Below are positions 8,458-31,287 of a stretch of 64,000 nt of DNA, in pieces. The translations under genes were made by a program, and so were the position numbers. The stretch spans positions 62,001 through 126,000 of the forward strand of contig JAHBXN010000009.1 in assembly GCA_019636475.1 (NCBI GenBank), given 5' to 3'. The notes under the pieces are model-generated. The model worked only from the letters and a program-made list of their open reading frames with translations, did no database searches and had not been told where the DNA came from. Source of the DNA: Phycisphaerae bacterium. GTDB taxonomy: Bacteria > Planctomycetota > Phycisphaerae > UBA1845 > UTPLA1. Each line of letters starts with the position of its first letter. Position 1 is the first letter of the stretch.

Positions 8458-10829
8458 TCGATAACCTCCCAGCCGCGGCCCTCGCCGAATTTGCGAAATG
8501 CCGGCTGCAACTCCTTCGGAAATCCGCCGATCTTCAGCGGTTCAACGTTTGCATACTGTGCCGGGTCAAACTTGAAGCCCCTGTCCTTGGCGAGCTCGTC
8601 ATCATGAGCGCCATTCTTGGTCGACTTTGAATCGTCGAATGTCGATACCTCGTCCTCAAAGACAACCTCGTCCTCGCAGTCGCACCAAAAATGGAGGGGT
8701 GGAAATGCCTTGCGATCGGTGAGTTTGAACACCTTGTTGACGTAAGGCTGGCAGATCGGGCACGCATCGCCGTTCGACACAAACATCCAGCCGGCAGCGC
8801 CGAATTCGACATACTCGCTGAAGCGCCCGGCCGCGTGCGCCATCATGAAGTTTTGGAAACAAACAAGGTCTGCGTGATATGGGTTCTCACCCGACCATCC
8901 GGCGGCGTCAGCCATCGAAGGCAGCCGCACTCGGAAGTCGCGGGATATTTCGCCGTTGGCGATCGACTTCACCAGTGCCTGGTGAATCGTCGCCAGAACG
9001 CCCATGTCATAAACGCCGGCCACGCGCGATGCCCGCGAGCGTGCTTCGAGCTCCAGTGCTGCAAACTCATCCGGGTCCAGCCCGATCCGATCGCGCAGTG
9101 CTCCAATGGCTCGCTCAAAGGGAATGCGGTTGAAGTCGATCTCGGCGTGCGCGAGCAGTACCCGCAGTTCGCTCCGATTGATTCCGAGTTTTCGCTGGGC
9201 ATCCAGAATGCCGGCCATCTTCGCTGCCAGGACGGACTGCTCGGCGACGGCCTGCATTTCGTCAACAGGCAGCAGGTCGAACATCTGCGGCAGGTCCGCC
9301 AGTGCCGTCTCACTGTCTCGCCGCTTCTCGATGAAGTTGGAAACCGCCGCGATAACATTGCTTGTATGCGCGGCCGTGGCCAGCACCGCCGCCATGATCC
9401 ACGCGCTCATTCGTGCTGCCGGCGTTCGCCGCCGCTTCACAATCTCGATTAACTTGCGCCGATGCACGGTCAAGCTGGAACGGCCCGCGCGCTTGTTGAA
9501 GGTCAGGTCGTTTCCAAAAGGATCGCCGCCGGTCGCGCCCGGCAGCGCATCGCCTGGTTTTTCGTCATCGGTCAAGCGAATGCCGAGCTCGTCCTGGACA
9601 ACCGACTTCGGCACCTTGGCCCCGAGCCGATTGACCGCCCGGTCCAGTAGCTCCGCCATGTCCAATAGGTCGCGAGCCTCTTCGATGACACGCCGGAAGT
9701 ATGGCGCGTGCATCACGCCTTCGTCGCCGAACTTCTGGCGTGCGATCGGGATGATGAGTCGCGACCGGATCGTCTCGCCTTCGTTCGAGATGTCGCGCTT
9801 CAGCAGATCTTTGCGCACTTCGTTATGGACTGTCGCCGCTGCCTTGGCCCCGCCCGTTTCGCCGATCTCCGTGGTCAGCGTCTGACCCAAAAAGAGCTTC
9901 GAGAATTCCGCGTCGATGTACTTGGCGATTCGCTCATAAGGCAGTTGCCCGCGATTGGCCGCTTCGACGAATTCAATCTCTGTGCCTTCAGGAAAGAGTC
10001 CGCCGCGATTAAGGCCCAGGTCGCGAATCAGTTTCGTCATCGCCTTGCGCGTCTCAGTGTCGCCCGGCTGGCCATACTTGGCGACAGTGATCGGCATACC
10101 GAAGAGCTCGTTGTAAATCGCCCAGCCCTTCTTCGCGAAAACCTTGATGCAGAATAGCGGCGCAGCCGGTCGCAGGAGCGCTCCGCGCACGGCAAGCCCG
10201 CCGATCGAAACGGGCCGGTGAACGATCCACTTGCCCTCCGGAAATTCGTCGATCGCGATGCCGTTCCAGTCGGATTCGAGCCGGATGCGCAGCCGGGACG
10301 GATTCATGTGATCGCAGGTCAAAAGCGCATCTTCCACACAGTGCAACGCTACAGGCACCTGTGCGCGATACTCGACTTCAGCCACTTTGAGACCGCGCCC
10401 GATCGCATCGGGCAGGCACTGCAGCGCGCAATCGAAGCCGTCGATTTCGGCGATGACTGCGGCGCAGTATTCATGCACTGCCTTGGCCTTGGCGTCATTG
10501 ATCTTCGGGTGCCGGCTGATTTCATTGGCGGGCACGAGCTCCCAATTGAGTCCGCCGATCGCCATCTTGCGGGTCTCGAACACGCTTCGAAGATGGCCGT
10601 CCATTTCGCACATCGTGTCGAAGAGTTCGAACTGTTCGCGCGGCTCGCCCTCTACGGCCGTCTTCAGGATGCGGACAATGCGCTCGGGCGTCGGGTTGCC
10701 CCGAAACAGATCGGCAATCTCGAAACCTGTTGATGTCGGCACGACGATGCGTCCGCCCTTTTGCGGCCGTGTGGCCTTGGCGGTCGGCGGTCGTGCGGCG
10801 TTGGCGATGCGTCCGGTGGCCGCGCTCAT
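8454..10829 (-). CDS. portal (Mu gp29/DUF935) fused to Mu gpF-like head protein
   Basis: 791 residues carrying two normally separate Mu functions. Residues 1 to about 480 match the DUF935 portal family (ELFDTMCEMDGHLRSVFETR, KVFAKKGWAIYNELFGMPIT, FLGQTLTTEIGETGG). The C-terminal part matches the Mu gpF minor head family, with the Cys/His block GDACPICQPYVNKVF then FPPLHFWCDCEDE. The portal is the dodecameric DNA gate; gpF-type proteins help head assembly. ATGA overlaps join it to the terminase and GTGA to the protease. No stop or frameshift is seen at the junction. Confidence 0.85.
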   Translation of the reverse strand: MSAATGRIANAARPPTAKATRPQKGGRIVVPTSTGFEIADLFRGNPTPERIVRILKTAVEGEPREQFELFDTMCEMDGHLRSVFETRKMAIGGLNWELVPANEISRHPKINDAKAKAVHEYCAAVIAEIDGFDCALQCLPDAIGRGLKVAEVEYRAQVPVALHCVEDALLTCDHMNPSRLRIRLESDWNGIAIDEFPEGKWIVHRPVSIGGLAVRGALLRPAAPLFCIKVFAKKGWAIYNELFGMPITVAKYGQPGDTETRKAMTKLIRDLGLNRGGLFPEGTEIEFVEAANRGQLPYERIAKYIDAEFSKLFLGQTLTTEIGETGGAKAAATVHNEVRKDLLKRDISNEGETIRSRLIIPIARQKFGDEGVMHAPYFRRVIEEARDLLDMAELLDRAVNRLGAKVPKSVVQDELGIRLTDDEKPGDALPGATGGDPFGNDLTFNKRAGRSSLTVHRRKLIEIVKRRRTPAARMSAWIMAAVLATAAHTSNVIAAVSNFIEKRRDSETALADLPQMFDLLPVDEMQAVAEQSVLAAKMAGILDAQRKLGINRSELRVLLAHAEIDFNRIPFERAIGALRDRIGLDPDEFAALELEARSRASRVAGVYDMGVLATIHQALVKSIANGEISRDFRVRLPSMADAAGWSGENPYHADLVCFQNFMMAHAAGRFSEYVEFGAAGWMFVSNGDACPICQPYVNKVFKLTDRKAFPPLHFWCDCEDEVVFEDEVSTFDDSKSTKNGAHDDELAKDRGFKFDPAQYANVEPLKIGGFPKELQPAFRKFGEGRGWEVIE

Positions 10830-12205
10830 TCGTCATCCCCCCATCCGTCGTCATCGTCCAATGCCCGATCGGCAAACACGCAACGCTGCACCGGCTCGTA
10901 CACGGGCATCGGCGCTGCCTTCGTGATGCCCGCATGAATCGCCATCGCCATCGACCAGAACCGGTCGGCATGCGAATCGCCGGCCTCTCCCTCGAATCGC
11001 TTATTGCCCGCCGCCGTTGTCGTACAGCGAACGCTGTGCAGGTCCTGCCGTAAATCGTGATCGTCCGGGATTAAAATATTCCGCTCTTCGAACAGACCGC
11101 GCAGATCGCCCGCGAGAATTTCCTTCAGCCCCTGAAACTTCACGCCTTCGACGCGCGAACTGCCGAGCCGCTTTTTCATTGTGTCAACGATCGGTTCGCC
11201 CATGCCGCCTGCATCGAGCACCAGCCGAGTAAATTTCGGATAGTGTCGGCATGCCGCCTGTACGGCATCGTACTGCTGCTCGAACGGCATCCGTTTCATT
11301 TCAACCATGCCGACCGTGGTAAAACGGTTCGCTCGCTTGGCCAGCAGTGTAAGCACGGAAAGATGGTGCCACCGGGCGATGTCCCAACCGCCAAAGATGC
11401 TGTCATCGTCGCAATCGATCAGCCGCTTCGAAGCCTTGTCGCTCGTGCATCCCTGAATGAGTTCCCACGGCAGCCAGCAAATTTCGTCATCGACAAACTC
11501 GCATAGGTATTCCTGCCGCCAGGCGATGTCATCATTAAGCGCTGCTTTCAACATCGCCGGGTCTTGCGGACAACCTTGTTCGACGGCCTCGTAAATCGTG
11601 AGCCGGTGCGTCGACCAGATCGAGTCGGGTTTGATCGCCTCTTCCCATTTCTTTTGAAACCAGCCCGGCCTCGGCGTCGTGATGATGATGAACTTGTAGC
11701 CGCCGCGCGAAACGACCGGGAACGCCGTCGTGAAGAGTTCGCGGTTGCGCTTGGTCAACGCCGCCTCGTCCCATAGCACATTGCCCGTGAAGCCGGCAGC
11801 GGAGTCGGGATTGCCCGAGACGACAACAACGCGCGAGCCGCCCGGATATTCGAGTTCGAATGATCGCTCCTCCAGCTCATTCACCACTTCGCGCATGCTG
11901 GGTGCGATCAGAATTTTTTTCGCCGCTTCGACCGCGCGGGCCACGTCACGAATCTTGATGGCCATCTCGCGCGCTTGCGAAAGCGACCGGCTGATGACGG
12001 TCCAGAGTGTTTTCTTTCCTTCGGCCTCAGTCATCAGGATGTCGTCGTTAACCAGCAGCGCCGCGCCCATGCTCTTGCCGCACTGACGAGACCACATGAT
12101 GATCATGAATCGCGCCTTATTCGTGACGAGCCGAACCTGGTATGGATACGGCTTGATGACCGACTCCATCGCGTGTTCAGGTTTGTATTCGTTCGCCGCA
12201 ACCAT
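10826..12205 (-). CDS. terminase large subunit (Mu gp28 type)
   Basis: 459 residues. An ATPase domain with a Walker-A-like SRQCGKS (39-45) and Walker B VLWDEAA (Asp146, Glu147) is followed by a C-terminal RNase-H-like nuclease with acidic residues in FGGWDIARW, LVLDAGGMGE and HADRFWSMAMA. It packages DNA into the prohead; Mu-type enzymes cut host flanking DNA instead of cos sites. It overlaps the small subunit stop as TAATG and the portal start as ATGA. Confidence 0.9.
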   Translation of the reverse strand: MVAANEYKPEHAMESVIKPYPYQVRLVTNKARFMIIMWSRQCGKSMGAALLVNDDILMTEAEGKKTLWTVISRSLSQAREMAIKIRDVARAVEAAKKILIAPSMREVVNELEERSFELEYPGGSRVVVVSGNPDSAAGFTGNVLWDEAALTKRNRELFTTAFPVVSRGGYKFIIITTPRPGWFQKKWEEAIKPDSIWSTHRLTIYEAVEQGCPQDPAMLKAALNDDIAWRQEYLCEFVDDEICWLPWELIQGCTSDKASKRLIDCDDDSIFGGWDIARWHHLSVLTLLAKRANRFTTVGMVEMKRMPFEQQYDAVQAACRHYPKFTRLVLDAGGMGEPIVDTMKKRLGSSRVEGVKFQGLKEILAGDLRGLFEERNILIPDDHDLRQDLHSVRCTTTAAGNKRFEGEAGDSHADRFWSMAMAIHAGITKAAPMPVYEPVQRCVFADRALDDDDGWGDDE

Positions 12206-20112: not shown

Positions 20113-22185
20113 ATGGCACTAGCAATTCAAAAACTCGAAGCCGACGCCCAGGCGCAATCGCCAAGCTACCGGCTCATTCCCGCCGCCGACGCTGCCCGGA
20201 TCATGGGTATCGCCGAGCGGCATCTTCGCCGCCGATGCGCCGAGGAGTTCGCCCCGCGTGGACTCGCGGCCATGGAAGACGGCAAGTGGCACGTCTCGCC
20301 CTTGGTCGATGATCGCCTGCCCCGCGAACTGGATGCGCTGTCGGTCGACCGCGAGCTCGTCGCCGAACTCTACAAGGATGGCACGCCACAGAACTACATC
20401 GACGCGGCTATCGCCAAGCGGGACATTCTGCTCGGCTTCAACCGCTTCGAGGCTCGCGGCATGAAAGAGGCCGATGCCCGCGCCGCCTACATCGCATCGC
20501 TTGAAGCACGGGGCGTCTTTGCCGATGCCGACCTGACGACACCGGATGTCCGCACCTTCTACCGATGGGAAGCGGCTTATCGTCAGCAGCACATTGCAGG
20601 GCTGTGCCGCAAGGTTTACGCGCGGCACAAGGCCGGCCCGGTCGGCGAAGCCGCGATGGAAATGCTCATGAACCTCGTGAACTGCGGCAACAAGTTTTCC
20701 GCGTCCGAGGCGATCGAGCTCACCCGAGGGAAAGCGGCTAAGCATCCGGACAATCCCGCCTGGAAGATGCCGGCTGATCGAACCATCCAGCTTGAACTTC
20801 AGCGCCGCCGCCCGCCCGCGTTGAAGACCTTCATCAACAAGGGCGACAGCGCCTGCACCAAGCTCCACATGCCCAAGCGCCGCCGCAACTATGAGTCGAT
20901 CGCCGCCAACGAAGAGTGGGTCGGTGATGAACGCACAATGGACGTGTGCATCCGTTATTGCGGCTCACGCGGCTGGAAGGCCACGCGTGTCGTGACGCTC
21001 ACGGTGTGGATGGACATGCGGTCTCGCGTGATTGTGGGGTGGGAGATTTCATTGCGCGGGAGTTCGCGAACCATTCTCGCAGCCTTCAAGCGCGGCGTGC
21101 TGGTCTATGGCAAGCCCAGGATCGCCCGATGCGACTGGGGTAAGGATTATGTCAAAGCCCTCGGCAACAGCAGGAAGAAGCGCCGCCGGGATGATCCAGC
21201 CGGAACGCCGCGACGCACCTACGTCATGGAGCAACTCGGCATCGACGTACAACCGACAGCGCGGCCCTACATGCCTTGGGCTAAACCGGTTGAGCCGTTC
21301 TTTTCTGTGATGAAGACCCACTTCGATCGATTTTGGGATTCATTCATGGGTGGCTCGCCGACCGAGCGTCACGAAGATCGCGGCGACTGGATCAAAGCCA
21401 ACCTCGAAAGGCTCCCGACGATTCACGATCTCATCGCCGCGTTCGAGCAATGGCTCGACAACTATCACAATCGGCCCCATGGCGCTGCCGATCTATTCGG
21501 CAAGACGCCGCTTGAAGCGATGCAGGCATTTCGGGATGGACCAGCCCGCACGGAAACGCCGGCCGTGCTCGATCACTTGTTTGCGTTCTTCTCCGAGCCG
21601 CGCACGGTGGGTCGCGATGGCATCCGATTCCGCAACGGCATCTATGGATTCTGCGAGCCCTCGCTCATTCCGCTTCAGGGCCAGCAGGTTCTTCTCCGCT
21701 ATCAGCCGGACAACATCGGCGACAACGTCATCGTCTGCGATTTGAACCGCATGCCGCTATCGACGGTGCCGCCGATCAAGTGCGAGCGCTGGCAGGATTA
21801 CAGCGAGGAAGATGCCAAGCGTCAGGCACGATTGCACCGTGAGACGGTGAAGCCCTATCGCAAGATGCGGCGAGGCTCGCGGGACTATTTCGACGGGCTG
21901 ACGACCAAGCAGCGGTTCGAACTCCAGCGTGAAGGCATCGAGGCCGTTCACGGCGATCGCCGCATCCAGTCGCTGTCACCCGTGCCACAACTCCGAGTCC
22001 GGCCCGACCTGGAAGCCGCGATCGACGCAATTCCCGAAAAAGTCGAGAAGCGTTCGAAGGCCGTTCGAAGCGGCACGGCCAACCGCGAACTCAATGTGCA
22101 TGACATGGCCGAGGCCGATGTAGCGCCGCCGCCCGCCGAGCGGCATTTTGGCGGCTTGTCATTGGAGGATTTTCTGGAGGATTAA
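20113..22185 (+). CDS. DDE transposase, MuA family
   Basis: 690 residues. The N-terminus has HTH features (DAARIMGIAERHLRRRCAEE). The catalytic core carries Asp272 (WVGDERTMD), Asp341 (RCDWGKDY) and Glu394 (PVEPFF), nearly the spacing of MuA (269/336/392). A Mu-type beta-barrel and the C-terminal MuB-contact region (HFGGLSLEDFLED) follow. It binds phage ends, nicks and joins strands for integration and replicative transposition. The next gene starts directly at its stop. All catalytic residues are present. Confidence 0.95.
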   Translation: MALAIQKLEADAQAQSPSYRLIPAADAARIMGIAERHLRRRCAEEFAPRGLAAMEDGKWHVSPLVDDRLPRELDALSVDRELVAELYKDGTPQNYIDAAIAKRDILLGFNRFEARGMKEADARAAYIASLEARGVFADADLTTPDVRTFYRWEAAYRQQHIAGLCRKVYARHKAGPVGEAAMEMLMNLVNCGNKFSASEAIELTRGKAAKHPDNPAWKMPADRTIQLELQRRRPPALKTFINKGDSACTKLHMPKRRRNYESIAANEEWVGDERTMDVCIRYCGSRGWKATRVVTLTVWMDMRSRVIVGWEISLRGSSRTILAAFKRGVLVYGKPRIARCDWGKDYVKALGNSRKKRRRDDPAGTPRRTYVMEQLGIDVQPTARPYMPWAKPVEPFFSVMKTHFDRFWDSFMGGSPTERHEDRGDWIKANLERLPTIHDLIAAFEQWLDNYHNRPHGAADLFGKTPLEAMQAFRDGPARTETPAVLDHLFAFFSEPRTVGRDGIRFRNGIYGFCEPSLIPLQGQQVLLRYQPDNIGDNVIVCDLNRMPLSTVPPIKCERWQDYSEEDAKRQARLHRETVKPYRKMRRGSRDYFDGLTTKQRFELQREGIEAVHGDRRIQSLSPVPQLRVRPDLEAAIDAIPEKVEKRSKAVRSGTANRELNVHDMAEADVAPPPAERHFGGLSLEDFLED

Positions 22186-23469
22186 ATGCTCCCGCCGTGG
22201 ATGAGGAAGAACGAGAAGCCGGCCGAGCCGGTGGAGCCGGTATGTCCGGCTGAAGCGGCGAGTGACATGGATGTAGCACCTCCTGAAATGGTTCAGGCGA
22301 TGGGCATGGAGGCCCGCAAAGTGACCAGGCAAGTGAAGTTGCCGGATGGTAGCGAGCTCGACGAAGCCGCGCGAGCCAAAATCAGGCAGGCCGTTTCCCG
22401 CCACATCGCCGATTACAAACTCACTCAGAAAGAAGTGGGGCGGTCGATCGGCCGTGCCAGCAACACGATCAGCGAGGTACTCGCCGGCACTTACAAGGGC
22501 GAGGCCGACGCGGTTCTTCGCCAACTCAACACGTGGATCGAAGATGATGACCGCCGCCGCCGAGAATCGCGGCCGCTCGGTTTTTATTCCACCTCGGTCT
22601 TTGAGACGATTCTCTTCCTCTCGAAATACGCCAAGTCCAACGGCCGCGTGCGCGGAGCGGGCGGCATTCGCATGCTCGACGCATCGCGCATCGCCCTTGG
22701 GTTTGGCCCGGCCGGCTGCGGCAAGTCGATCGGCGCGCAGGCACTGCATGCCGATGACCCGTCGTCGCTGCTCGTTCGAATCGACATCGGCAAGGCGACA
22801 AGGCAGGGCCTGATACGTGCCGTCGTGTCGGCATCGGGCGGCGAGCCCCGCCACAACATGAATCTCAACATGGACACGCTGCAAGATCGTCTCGGCGATT
22901 CGGGGCGTCTCCTGATCATCGACGAAGGCCACCGCATGGACTTCGGCTGTTGCGAACTCATCCGCGACATCACCGACGTCTGCGGCATTCCCTGCGTTGT
23001 TTTAGCCACGCAGGAGTTTACCGCCCGTCTAAGCGATATGCGTCTCGGCCTGGGCAAGATGCGATATGACCAGTTTGCCAGTCGCGTTGGCATGCAGATG
23101 GACTTGACGCGCGGCATCGACGGCAGCGGTGGAACCGAGCGTCCCATCTTCTCGCTCGAAGACATCAGGGCGATTTTCCGGTCGAACGAAGTCCGGCTGT
23201 CGAAAGCGGCCGAGGAGTATTTTCAGGCCATCGCCTGCACACCGCAGTCGGGCATGCTCCGCACGTGCAACAATGTTTTCGAGAAGATCGTCCGCGGAAC
23301 CCGCAGGCAACCCGGCGCTTTGATCGGCGTGGACGCGGTCCGAGAGGCCACGCGATACACGCTCTTTGCGCACGGCACCGAGAGCCAGGAGATCATGAAC
23401 AAGATCGAAAAGAGCCTGGCATCATGCAAGCACATGGCCAGCGAATACGAAGCCCGTGCAGTTGGCTAG
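22186..23469 (+). CDS. MuB-type transposition ATPase
   Basis: 427 residues. An HTH (YKLTQKEVGRSIGRASNTIS, about 82-101) precedes an AAA+ domain with Walker A GPAGCGKS (174-181) and Walker B LLIIDEGH (Asp246). MuB-type ATPases coat target DNA, stimulate the transposase and give target immunity. GGAGGA lies before the ATG at the end of the transposase gene, so both are made together. Confidence 0.9.
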   Translation: MLPPWMRKNEKPAEPVEPVCPAEAASDMDVAPPEMVQAMGMEARKVTRQVKLPDGSELDEAARAKIRQAVSRHIADYKLTQKEVGRSIGRASNTISEVLAGTYKGEADAVLRQLNTWIEDDDRRRRESRPLGFYSTSVFETILFLSKYAKSNGRVRGAGGIRMLDASRIALGFGPAGCGKSIGAQALHADDPSSLLVRIDIGKATRQGLIRAVVSASGGEPRHNMNLNMDTLQDRLGDSGRLLIIDEGHRMDFGCCELIRDITDVCGIPCVVLATQEFTARLSDMRLGLGKMRYDQFASRVGMQMDLTRGIDGSGGTERPIFSLEDIRAIFRSNEVRLSKAAEEYFQAIACTPQSGMLRTCNNVFEKIVRGTRRQPGALIGVDAVREATRYTLFAHGTESQEIMNKIEKSLASCKHMASEYEARAVG

Positions 23470-27976: not shown

Positions 27977-28854
27977 CCCAGACCGCCAAACAACCCGCTC
28001 TCCCCGGCCTTCAAACCGCCGCCGCCGATGCCGCCCGCTCGGCATCGCACCTGCGCGACTCATGGACCAGGGCCGAGTGCGACTTCGCCCTGCGCTGCAT
28101 CGAAGTCTGGAACGAGGCGTTCGCCAATTTCGGCATCCGCGCCAACAAGACCAAGCACAATATGTTCCTCGCCGTCCACGCGCTGAAATGGATCAGCGGC
28201 CCGCTGAATGATGGCGAAAAGATGTCCGCCGAAGATGTGCTCGTCGCGATCCGCGCCTATGCCGCCGATCCGTGGATCAAGGAGAAGTGCAACGGCCGCT
28301 TCCTGGCATTCCCCGATTGGATGAAGGACGCGGTCGACAAGAACATCGACAAGCAACTCGCCCGCGTCGGTAAGCGCCGCGGCCACGCCGCCCCGTCCCC
28401 CGCAGAGATCGCCGAGAAGAGGCAATCCGTCGCAGATCGAGTGCGATATGACAAAGCAATGGCGTTCATCACGGACCGTGGCTGGCTTCGCCACGTCAAC
28501 ACGATTGCCAGCACGAGGACGGATAATCCGCCCACGATCCGCGAGTACTTGTCTGGCCTTCGCGCCATAGCCGCACGAGGCAACGGCCGAGACCATAAAA
28601 AACTGCACGAACATTACGACATTCTGATCGGCCACCTCGACGCGATCGAAGCGTTGCCAAAGTCCAACCGCAAAGCATGGGCCGCGATCATGAATTATGC
28701 GTTGGGTGCGCTACGGCCCATGAAGGATTCACCGATCAAAGTCAGCTTGCGGCTTGCGATCGCCGCCGAGCTCGTCGCGCGGTTCGGCGTTGAACGCGCG
28801 GCGCAGATTGCGTCAAAGCAACCGATCCAGGAGGTTCAAAAGTCCGCGAAGTGA
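27964..28854 (+). CDS. early phage protein, unknown
   Basis: 296 residues starting MRTLTQTAKQPALPGLQTAA and overlapping the acidic gene by 13 bases. It is mostly helical with no signal peptide; WNEAFANFGIRANKTKHNMF and the Lys-rich NGRFLAFPDWMKDAVDKNID segment resemble replication-type or host-take-over phage proteins, without a definite family. Confidence 0.5.
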   Translation: MRTLTQTAKQPALPGLQTAAADAARSASHLRDSWTRAECDFALRCIEVWNEAFANFGIRANKTKHNMFLAVHALKWISGPLNDGEKMSAEDVLVAIRAYAADPWIKEKCNGRFLAFPDWMKDAVDKNIDKQLARVGKRRGHAAPSPAEIAEKRQSVADRVRYDKAMAFITDRGWLRHVNTIASTRTDNPPTIREYLSGLRAIAARGNGRDHKKLHEHYDILIGHLDAIEALPKSNRKAWAAIMNYALGALRPMKDSPIKVSLRLAIAAELVARFGVERAAQIASKQPIQEVQKSAK

Positions 28855-28977
28855 AAAGGCCCGGCGCGTGGGGCGGCACCGGCCGAACCCACGCGGTGTT
28901 ACGAGCACCGGATTTATCGCGCCGGGCTATTTCCCCAACAGCCCACAAATCGGCACCGGAGAATGCAGGCATGAGAA

Positions 28978-29142
28978 GTGAAGAAAGGGAAAACTACGCG
29001 GCCGCACGCCGCGGATGAAAAGGGCATTCGTTATCAGCCGCGGTTCGCCGTGGCCATCGAGTGCAGGAACGAACGAGACCAGCGCCGGCTTTACAACCGG
29101 CTGCGCAAGAGCGGCCTTGAGCCGAAGGTGCTGGTCCTATGA
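28978..29142 (+). CDS. 54-residue early protein, GTG start
   Basis: Open frame from GTG 28978 to a TGA that overlaps the next ATG (ATGA). The product MKKGKTTRPHAADEKGIRYQ continues to CRNERDQRRLYNRLRKSGLE PKVLVL, the compact beta-alpha-beta look of a small phage protein. Coupling to the ABC-GNAT gene supports it. The stretch 28855-28977 has no other gene. Confidence 0.5.
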   Translation: MKKGKTTRPHAADEKGIRYQPRFAVAIECRNERDQRRLYNRLRKSGLEPKVLVL

Positions 29143-30260
29143 AGACATACGATGTTTCTCGCAGCTGCAAAATTCCGTCGAGCTACCGGGCAGCCCGCGT
29201 CCGCTCGCTCTTCAACGTCACGCCCGATCAGGGCAGCACGTTCACGCTTCGCGCCGAACTTCCAACCGACGAATCAGATTGGCGCGTCGGCCTCATCGTC
29301 GGTCCGAGTGGGTCAGGGAAAAGCACGCTCGCTCGCGAGGCGTTCGGCACCGACTGCGAACACAGTCGATTTGTCTGGACGCGCGGTCCCATCATCGACC
29401 AGATTGGCGCGAGCGTGCCGTTCAATGACGCCGTCGCCGCGCTATCCGCGGTCGGACTTGGCAGTTGCCCGTCCTGGCTCAGGCCGTTCGACGTTCTTTC
29501 GGTCGGTGAAAAGTTCCGGGCCGAACTCGCCCGGCTCTTGCTCGAGGCCGGCGATCGCGTGTGGCTGGATGAATTCACGTCCGCCCTCGACCGCAAGGTG
29601 GCCCGCGTCGCGGCCCATGCTTTCGGTAAGGCGTGGCGGCGGCGAGCCGGTCAGTTCGTGGCCGTCACATGCCACGGCGATGTCACCGACTGGCTTCAGC
29701 CCGATTGGATTTTCGACGCCGCGAAGGGCACCTTCGCAAGGAGGTTGCTTCGGCGACGGCCCGAAATCACGATCGAAGTCCGTCAAACGAATTGGTCGAT
29801 GTGGCGACTATTTGAGCCGCATCATTACTTGAAGCTTCCGCTCATGGCAGGTGCAACGAACTTTGTCGGATACGTGGAGGGCGAGCCCATCGTCCATCTC
29901 GCCGCTGCGCCAACGTGCGGCGTCAAGAGCGTGCGCTTCAGCCGATTGGTGGTCATGCCCGAATGGCAGGGCGCGGGCGTCGGCATGGCGTTTCTGAATC
30001 ACATGGCCGAACGTTACTTCCGCGGCCGCAATCGCTACGCGAAGCGGATGACCAGCATCATCCACACGAGCCACCCCGGCCTCGCCGCGGCGCTGCGCCG
30101 TGACGAACGATGGGTTCTCACCACGGCGCGCATCGGCGAAAAGTCCGATCGTGCCGGCAAGGCGGGAAGCCGCCGACACGCGGCCGGCCACAACGTGCCG
30201 ACGTTTGGTGGTCACCTTCGAGCCGTTCTTGGATTTCGATACATCGGAGACCGCACATGA
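29139..30260 (+). CDS. ABC-type ATPase fused to GNAT acetyltransferase
   Basis: 373 residues in two domains. Residues 45-200 form an ABC ATPase: Walker A GPSGSGKST (55-63), signature LSVGEKFR (120-127) and Walker B VWLDEF (Asp144). Residues 215-330 form a GNAT fold with acetyl-CoA-binding motif VVMPEWQGAGVGMAF. No membrane segments, so not a transporter. It lies near the phage right end, where Mu keeps its GNAT-fold DNA-modifying Mom protein, and is coupled to a formyltransferase-like gene. A nucleic-acid or nucleotide modification role is inferred. Confidence 0.75.
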   Translation: MKTYDVSRSCKIPSSYRAARVRSLFNVTPDQGSTFTLRAELPTDESDWRVGLIVGPSGSGKSTLAREAFGTDCEHSRFVWTRGPIIDQIGASVPFNDAVAALSAVGLGSCPSWLRPFDVLSVGEKFRAELARLLLEAGDRVWLDEFTSALDRKVARVAAHAFGKAWRRRAGQFVAVTCHGDVTDWLQPDWIFDAAKGTFARRLLRRRPEITIEVRQTNWSMWRLFEPHHYLKLPLMAGATNFVGYVEGEPIVHLAAAPTCGVKSVRFSRLVVMPEWQGAGVGMAFLNHMAERYFRGRNRYAKRMTSIIHTSHPGLAAALRRDERWVLTTARIGEKSDRAGKAGSRRHAAGHNVPTFGGHLRAVLGFRYIGDRT

Positions 30261-30832
30261 GACTTTTCATCATGGGCGAGTCCCGGTTCGCGGCCGTCTT
30301 CCTTCGCGCGGCCGTTGCGTTTGGTCATGAGGTGGTTGGAGTCTCGTCAACGTCGAACTAGATGACAGCCGATCCGCTCGCCGCTGCCGCGGCCTCGTTC
30401 GGCATTGCTCAGGTTTCATCCGACCTGATCGCGCTGAACGCGGGCGATCCGCTTCGACGCTCCGGCGCGGAACTCCTCGTCCTGGCCAACGTCTCGCGGC
30501 TGCTCTCCGAGGCCGTTCTGAGCGCATGCCCGCGCGGGTCGATCTGCTTTCACCCGTCGCTCTTGCCGAGGCACCGCGGCAAGCGCGCCGTCGCCGCCGC
30601 GATCAAGGCCGGCGACACGTTCACCGGCGTCTCGATTTTCTGGCCGGACAAAGGCGCGGACACCGGTCCGATCATCCTTCGAAGCCGGGTCGAGATCGCA
30701 TCGAATGACACCCCGATGTCGCTCTACCACGCCAAGCTCGTCCCGGTCGGCATCCACTGCCTGCTCGCGGCCGTCGCCGCGATCGAAGCCGACGCCGCCC
30801 CCCGCATCCCTCAAGAGGAGGCCGCGCTATGA
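30257..30832 (+). pseudogene. formyltransferase-like gene split by in-frame TAG
   Basis: The frame starts at ATG 30257 with a Rossmann start (MRLFIMGESRFAAVFLRAAV AFGHEVVGV) typical of methionyl-tRNA/GAR formyltransferases. TAG at 30359-30361 follows, then ATG 30362 in the same frame. The second part has CFHPSLLPRHRGKRAVAAAI and DKGADTGPIILR, the conserved active-site and folate-site segments. Without the TAG it would be one 191-residue domain. It is either a recent nonsense mutant or two coupled half-proteins. The full-length Fmt C-terminal domain is absent. Confidence 0.7.
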
Positions 30833-31032: not shown

Positions 31033-31113
31033 CGGACATTCGGATGCGCGCAGGTTTTATCATTTCCGCGCGTAACTCCTTATTTTTCAAACAGCTTGCG
31101 GCGAAAGCGCAAA

Positions 31114-31174
31114 TCCGCCTTTGTGACAAAATCCCCCCGTTTTTTATCCGATTATCCGCTTTTATGACAAAATC
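31114..31174. repeat. subterminal repeats, probable transposase-binding sites
   Basis: Two 20-mers of consensus TCCGCYTTTRTGACAAAATC lie at 31114-31133 and 31155-31174, differing at two bases and spaced 41 apart. A weaker copy (CCTT, nine bases, then AAATCCCC) lies at 31206-31224, and two 8-base TTATCCG-type repeats fall between. Mu-family ends carry such clusters as transposase sites within about 200 bases of the terminus. Confidence 0.55.
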
Positions 31175-31287
31175 TCGCCCGAACGTAACCTACGCCATTT
31201 CCTAGCCTTACGCGAAAAATCCCCATTTTTCTTTATGCCAGATTTTCCTGCGCGCGCTATGAATTCACAACTCATTTTCTTACAGAA

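Follow-up and report, generated by a model that had tools for sequence, protein, structure and literature searches.

Mom of phage Mu (PF25680) is an N6-adenine modifier. The RNA cytidine acetyltransferases NAT10 and TmcA combine an ATPase and a GNAT domain in one protein, which acts on a nucleobase amine. Proteins in which an ABC ATPase is fused to a GNAT domain (ABC-GNAT) were predicted some time ago to be phage DNA acyl modifiers (Iyer et al. 2013), and this prediction is restated in PMC7824862.

The DNA analyzed here, which we call the window, is a stretch of 64,000 nt (contig positions 62,001-126,000) from a 4.4 Mb bacterial genome. It codes for a protein of this kind: the published example QAX98348.1 gives a tblastn match to the window ABC-GNAT (E 4e-30, 31.6% identical over 87% of the query). 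The gene is found in a prophage, between a small ParB-related gene and an interrupted formyltransferase gene.

The prophage and its ABC-GNAT protein

To judge from its gene content, the prophage is transposable (Mu-like), since MuA-like, MuB-like and GemA-like genes run rightward, while terminase, portal and head genes run leftward on the other strand. The rightward operon starts at 20113 with the MuA-like transposase, followed by the MuB-like ATPase and the GemA-like gene, and the cassette forms its last genes, so an earlier note on this DNA was right in stating that the cassette closes the early operon. The leftward late region includes genes for terminase, portal, head maturation protease and major head protein. 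The main features are the following:

10826..12205, - strand: terminase large subunit, leftward late region (phrog_2, E 5e-36)
20113..22185, + strand: MuA-like transposase, start of the operon (PF09299; phrog_310, E 7e-70)
22186..23469, + strand: MuB-like transposition ATPase (phrog_296, E 2e-31)
28853..28933, + strand: GC-rich RNA hairpin, after the preceding gene and before the cassette (RNA folding)
28978..29142, + strand: 54-residue gene, by profile match a freestanding ParB-tail copy (phrog_28816, E 5e-10)
29139..29753, + strand: ABC ATPase domain, residues 1-205 (Walker A GPSGSGKS, signature LSVGE, Walker B and Glu DE144-145, H-switch His179)
29754..30260, + strand: GNAT acyltransferase domain, residues 206-373 (Pfam GNAT matches; predicted fold; QGAGVG motif, 277-282)
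30257..30361, + strand: N-terminal piece of the formyltransferase, ATGA-coupled (34 codons, then TAG; matches the start of intact relatives)
30362..30832, + strand: remainder of the formyltransferase (PF00551, E 1e-25; phrog_9240, E 4e-36)
31113..31138, + strand: direct repeat of 26 bp, copy 1, phage-end type, similar to a transposase site
31154..31179, + strand: direct repeat of 26 bp, copy 2, phage-end type

The two 26-bp direct repeats, found ~280 nt to the right of the cassette, are of a kind known from the ends of transposable phages. They are the only exact matches in the genome, which has one further site with three mismatches, as expected close to a transposable phage end. A search of the genome with the terminal repeats did not find the opposite prophage end. 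The hairpin upstream of the cassette has an MFE of -55 kcal/mol (z -2.56 against dinucleotide shuffles, region 28852-28980). It is possibly a terminator, or else a regulatory leader or translational control element.

The earlier note described a soluble ABC ATPase fused to a GNAT domain, coupled by an ATGA overlap to a 54-residue gene. Both statements agree with our results. The overlap is found at 29139-29142, and the fusion protein (29139-30260, 373 aa; phrog_11143, E 1e-119) is recognized by Pfam (PF00005 and GNAT matches) and by its predicted folds. The word soluble is reasonable, since the cassette has no transmembrane partner gene. AlphaFold models of the whole protein and of the GNAT domain were built with 57 sequences. 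The former has two confident domains (mean pLDDT 89.6) and the latter a pLDDT of 86.5. The predicted ABC fold matches ABC ATPases (VIA Z 15.7) and the predicted GNAT fold matches N-acyltransferases (VIA Z 14.3), the nearest being protein acetyltransferases of the RimI/Naa50 type and polyamine acetyltransferases. The catalytic residues of the ABC domain (Walker A and B, signature, H-switch) are kept in the alignment of relatives. The CoA-pyrophosphate motif of the GNAT domain, of QxxGxG type, is retained in the window protein, and nearly all full-length family members have a conserved CoA motif.

The comparison with Mom, also made in the earlier note, does not extend to kinship. PF25680 finds Mu Mom at E 2e-75, and it gives no match to the window protein at E<=0.5 or to the 57 GNAT domains at E<=0.05; hhalign gives E 0.88. 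Mom is not among the best 50 viral structure matches to the GNAT model, which is no argument either way. Membership of the window GNAT in the Mom family is ruled out by these sequence comparisons.

Relatives of the ABC-GNAT protein had to be found with alignments, as a single-sequence search of IMG/VR with the window protein gave no match. A few other proteins should be mentioned. A distant relative of the ABC part, about half of the query, is found in 878 plasmid records; those listed are ~105-118 kb in size, mainly from Klebsiella, Escherichia and Acinetobacter. Pseudomonas phage phiK7B1 has the order ParB, ABC, small gene, separate GNAT-like protein and terminase, which suggests a split version of the ABC-GNAT system. 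A viral protein, BFVD entry A0A8S5PZ92 (Siphoviridae sp. ctG0D7), is listed as an aspartate 1-decarboxylase and can be aligned with the GNAT model over 183 columns. Perhaps GNAT and PanD are fused in this protein, or its name may be an error.

The cassette in other phages

The 54-residue protein can be aligned with the C-terminal ~38 residues of ParB-like proteins from Gordonia, Streptococcus, Leptospira and Pasteurella phages. The ParB N-terminal domain is absent and the tail module alone aligns: by this alignment, the gene codes for the tail module of such proteins on its own. Many relatives have instead a ParB-like gene of roughly 170-230 residues, which overlaps the start of ABC-GNAT. When loci with enough upstream sequence were searched with a ParB-tail profile, the tail module was found directly before ABC-GNAT in 200 of 207. 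It is part of a ParB-like protein in 84 of these loci and a freestanding gene of 41-98 residues in the other 116. Away from ABC-GNAT, the profile matched 1 among 19,488 ORFs. A genome of the window host's own family has a natural ParB-tail-ABC-GNAT fusion, a single 584-residue ORF (L310:880-2634). Judging from this fusion and from the adjacency in 200 loci, the ParB tail is a near-constant partner of ABC-GNAT and not an analogue of Com. No Com-like regulator was found upstream in the window, where the 54-residue ParB-tail homologue has one Cys and no Cys pairs for a zinc finger.

One ParB-tail protein has been given another name. In Porphyromonas phage phage007a_Bg4 (L005:5840-5968), a protein annotated as 'acr candidate' is the freestanding ParB tail of the cassette, and the anti-CRISPR label looks wrong.

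The formyltransferase is also linked to ABC-GNAT. Close relatives were gathered from IMG/VR and GTDB contigs; 600 nt or more could be read downstream in 140 of them, and the formyltransferase is the next gene in 122 of these. Conversely, ABC-GNAT adjoins 78 of the best 80 phage formyltransferases, and the remaining two are at contig edges. The tree of ABC-GNAT proteins has one branch (support 100, n=81) in which the formyltransferase follows in 70 of 81 cases, compared with 0 of 27 outside it. The window protein is placed at the base of this clade. A natural ABC-GNAT-formyltransferase fusion is also found, as a single 534-residue ORF (L205:1245-2849). The GNAT domains of the clade have specific invariant residues (H253, R266, H309, S311 and GGH357-359), as expected if their donor or acceptor has changed; the window protein has this signature (H253, R266, H309-T-S-H-P, GGH357-359). 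The formyltransferase is not strictly required: in 19 loci whose ABC-GNAT has the GGHxR motif of the clade, no trace of it was found within 1.5 kb. Such loci make it possible that the ABC-GNAT writer may also use host acyl-CoA.

The cassette is conserved in diverse phages: Mu-like phages, Gordonia siphophages and prophages of Bacteroidota, Proteobacteria and Planctomycetota. Its operon adjoins terminase genes in many of them. Bearers known as cultured phages or from records include P. aeruginosa phage Komp_PAO1_1, Porphyromonas phages and many Gordonia phages. Intact versions are found in cultured phages: Komp_PAO1_1, Gordonia phages Mariokart, Ligma and others, and Rhodococcus phage Jace. The earlier note had suggested a gene-neighbourhood search for co-occurrence, and the answer is decisive: far from never co-occurring, the three genes are kept together as a cassette, and the conservation over more than 200 loci excludes chance as its origin.

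Jace, whose organism field reads Gordonia phage Jace, has a different version. Its ABC-GNAT is followed by an aspartate 1-decarboxylase (PanD; PF02261, E 2e-33) and a class III CoA-transferase homologue, with an N-terminal match only, of 92 residues (PF02515, E 2e-8). The Jace-type cassette is a sister lineage with another enzyme pair in the formyltransferase slot. A search with the PanD pair found five viral contigs (L007:5101-6212, L120:1796-2826, L222, L223 and L224), all five with the order ParB tail, ABC-GNAT, PanD and CoA-transferase, the genes mostly overlapping. These contigs are few and partly near-identical, as are the operons of L120 and L224. Since beta-alanine is the product of PanD and CoA-transferases yield acyl-CoAs, the pair would most naturally be read as a supplier of beta-alanyl-CoA to the GNAT domain. 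The formyltransferase and PanD modules were never found together in the loci examined.

Downstream genes in loci lacking the formyltransferase were also searched with Pfam. They code mainly for terminase and HTH proteins, with no shared third enzyme except PanD. An ASCH domain in the gene after L137/L139 was a guess without Pfam support, and we have discarded it. Aspartate decarboxylase matches also appear in 'phage' records of Staphylococcus, Listeria and Salmonella, which may be host DNA in phage records.

The formyltransferase and its possible acceptor

The ATGA overlap at 30257-30260, at the end of ABC-GNAT, opens a third ORF. The formyltransferase gene was thus correctly described as having an ATGA link, but the ORF that is actually coupled reads only 34 codons before an in-frame TAG (30359-30361), directly followed by an ATG at 30362. 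Relatives have an open frame where the window has this TAG. Pfam recognizes a formyltransferase only in the second piece (30362-30832), whose PF00551 match has 90.9 bits against a cut-off of 26.1. The window formyltransferase appears to be amber-interrupted and to lack its N-terminal Rossmann strand-helix, unless there is re-initiation or a sequencing error. In view of this interruption, the copy in the window prophage is probably either decaying or dependent on host acyl-CoA. The window probably contains a damaged copy of a widespread system.

The closest solved structures to the window formyltransferase are hydrolase domains of 10-formyl-THF dehydrogenase (E 2e-25). A search of IMG/VR with this protein alone gave no match. 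Its catalytic His, Ser and Asp are present and the catalytic Asn is replaced by Cys. In FMT, ArnA and GART, an Asn two residues before the HxSLLP motif is needed, while FDH/ALDH1L1 has Ile in this position (PMC4388273). The ALDH1L1 domain passes the formyl group to the thiol of 4'-phosphopantetheine (PMC8748788). For the N-terminal domain of HypX, formyl-CoA synthesis is only a proposal (PMC6802093).

We have compared this position, before HxSLLPxxxG, in the 134 phage formyltransferases in which it could be evaluated. It is G in 99, I in 19, A in 6, V in 5, S in 3 and C in 2, and Asn in none (0/134). Alignments indicate that the His/Ser/Asp triad is kept. The window host has its own Fmt and PurN elsewhere in the genome, both with the catalytic Asn; a housekeeping identity as Fmt or PurN was considered for the phage gene and rejected, on account of these host genes and of the different residue at the Asn position. 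The absence of Asn in 134 of 134 sequences, the conserved triad and the parallels with ALDH1L1 and HypX favour a thiol as the acceptor of the phage enzyme, CoA being the obvious one beside a CoA-using GNAT. The earlier note had proposed formyl transfer to bases. This may be the case, but the kinds of donor gene present and the lack of Asn agree with a first transfer to the CoA thiol.

A possible mechanism and its relation to known systems

We prefer to read the cassette as a system which acylates bases of phage DNA and whose acyl-donor module can be exchanged, and we give this reading a little less than an even chance. Some of its parts deserve more confidence than others. DNA is probably the substrate of ABC-GNAT, as suggested by the prediction already published (PMC7824862), by the ParB module and by the location, either beside the terminase or closing a Mu-like genome. 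The idea of a donor module in general is about evenly balanced; it comes mainly from the slot being occupied by two gene sets which are unrelated and can each be read as acyl-CoA makers. That the formyltransferase makes formyl-CoA specifically is rather doubtful.

The base acylation system might work as follows. The ABC ATPase would be docked on DNA by the ParB-tail protein, a role that would fall in other phages to the full ParB-like protein. Binding and hydrolysis of ATP by the ABC domain, whose catalytic residues are present, would load or distort the DNA until a base reaches the GNAT domain. This domain would move an acyl group from acyl-CoA to an exocyclic base amine, much as in the ATPase-coupled RNA cytidine acetyltransferases. 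The downstream gene, to judge from gene content and active-site residues, would make a special acyl-CoA. In the formyltransferase version, a thiol-acceptor enzyme would produce formyl-CoA, with 10-formyl-THF as the formyl source and CoA as the acceptor. In the lineage of Jace, beta-alanine would come from the aspartate decarboxylase and be converted to beta-alanyl-CoA by the class III CoA-transferase. We presume that the mark would shield phage DNA against host nucleases or play a part in packaging. A broader version, somewhat unlikely in our opinion, is a modular platform: one ParB-tail-loaded ABC-GNAT writer would be combined with varied phage-encoded acyl-CoA suppliers, so that one clade would N-formylate bases and another would beta-alanylate them. 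We know of no enzymatic phage mark in DNA consisting of either N-formyl or beta-alanyl bases.

The same genes may be interpreted in other ways. GNAT could add an aminoacyl group (e.g. glycyl or beta-alanyl) to the base, and the formyltransferase could then formylate its free amine on DNA. Amines are the usual acceptors of enzymes with a Formyl_trans_N domain, the lineage with PanD and CoA-transferase points to aminoacyl donors, and a GNAT-formyltransferase fusion exists. Such two-step hypermodification is nevertheless unlikely: the entire phage family lacks the Asn on which known amine formyltransferases depend, no supplier of aminoacyl-CoA is seen beside the formyltransferase, and the formyltransferase and PanD modules were not found side by side.

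Alternatively, ABC-GNAT might acylate a host or phage protein, such as host RNA polymerase, terminase or capsid, and redirect transcription or packaging. Phage GNATs such as Rac do act on RNA polymerase (PMC7824862), and the operon abuts terminase genes in many phages. The nearest folds, the RimI/Naa50-type protein and polyamine acetyltransferases, point the same way, but a fold match among GNATs is uninformative on substrate. A near-obligate ParB-derived module together with an ABC ATPase would be unusual for a protein acetyltransferase, and we consider a protein substrate improbable. The ParB-like N-terminal domains (PF02195), the adjacent terminase genes and the distant phage-plasmid relatives, which match the ABC part only, would also fit a DNA clamp, or a segregation or packaging device by the terminase, made of ParB and ABC, with GNAT and the downstream enzymes as auxiliary parts. 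This explanation is very unlikely, given that the GNAT domain is fused, that its CoA motif is conserved in nearly all full-length members and that donor-type enzymes co-vary with GNAT clades.

If the base acylation reading is correct, a predicted family of phage DNA modifiers gains two donor modules, and with them concrete candidate marks (formyl and beta-alanyl). As intact cassettes exist in cultured phages, a decade-old prediction may be tested by LC-MS. Formyl-CoA would acquire a role beyond hydrogenase maturation and oxalate metabolism. Common misannotations would be corrected: ABC siderophore transporter, phosphoribosylglycinamide formyltransferase, tRNA-methyltransferase and Acr candidate. 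The two natural fusions, of ParB tail with ABC-GNAT (L310) and of ABC-GNAT with formyltransferase (L205), would be useful single-chain constructs for structure work.

The window protein belongs to the predicted phage ABC-GNAT DNA-modification family, as indicated by its homology to QAX98348.1, its ABC motifs and its GNAT CoA motif. The part of PMC7824862 available is silent on the ParB-tail gene, on the clade with the formyltransferase and on the version with PanD and a CoA-transferase, and a literature search found no experimental work on the phrog_11143, phrog_28816 and phrog_9240 families. In the literature available, we saw neither the identity of the ParB tail nor the link with the formyltransferase, the PanD/CoA-transferase variant or the argument for a thiol acceptor; they may have been mentioned in 2013, and priority is uncertain.

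The phage formyltransferases are most similar to the ALDH1L1/FDH hydrolase domain, their closest solved relative, with His, Ser and Asp kept and Asn absent. They differ from ALDH1L1 and HypX in having no carrier or dehydrogenase domain and in being coupled or fused to ABC-GNAT, the window copy being cut by a TAG. Unlike the amine N-formyltransferases (Fmt, PurN, ArnA), they do not have the catalytic Asn before HxSLLPxxxG. NAT10 and TmcA resemble ABC-GNAT in their way of working, as ATPase-GNAT fusions, with a weak profile match (E 0.04); their ATPase is of helicase type and their substrate is RNA, and the kinship seen goes no further than the GNAT superfamily. The different modification system proposed in the earlier note is partly supported by the conserved cassette and by the published prediction for ABC-GNAT, although not as a relative of Mom. 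Both proteins belong to the GNAT superfamily and both have their gene at one end of a Mu-like genome, but the window GNAT keeps its CoA-binding motif, is fused to an ABC ATPase and has a ParB tail, rather than Com, as its partner.
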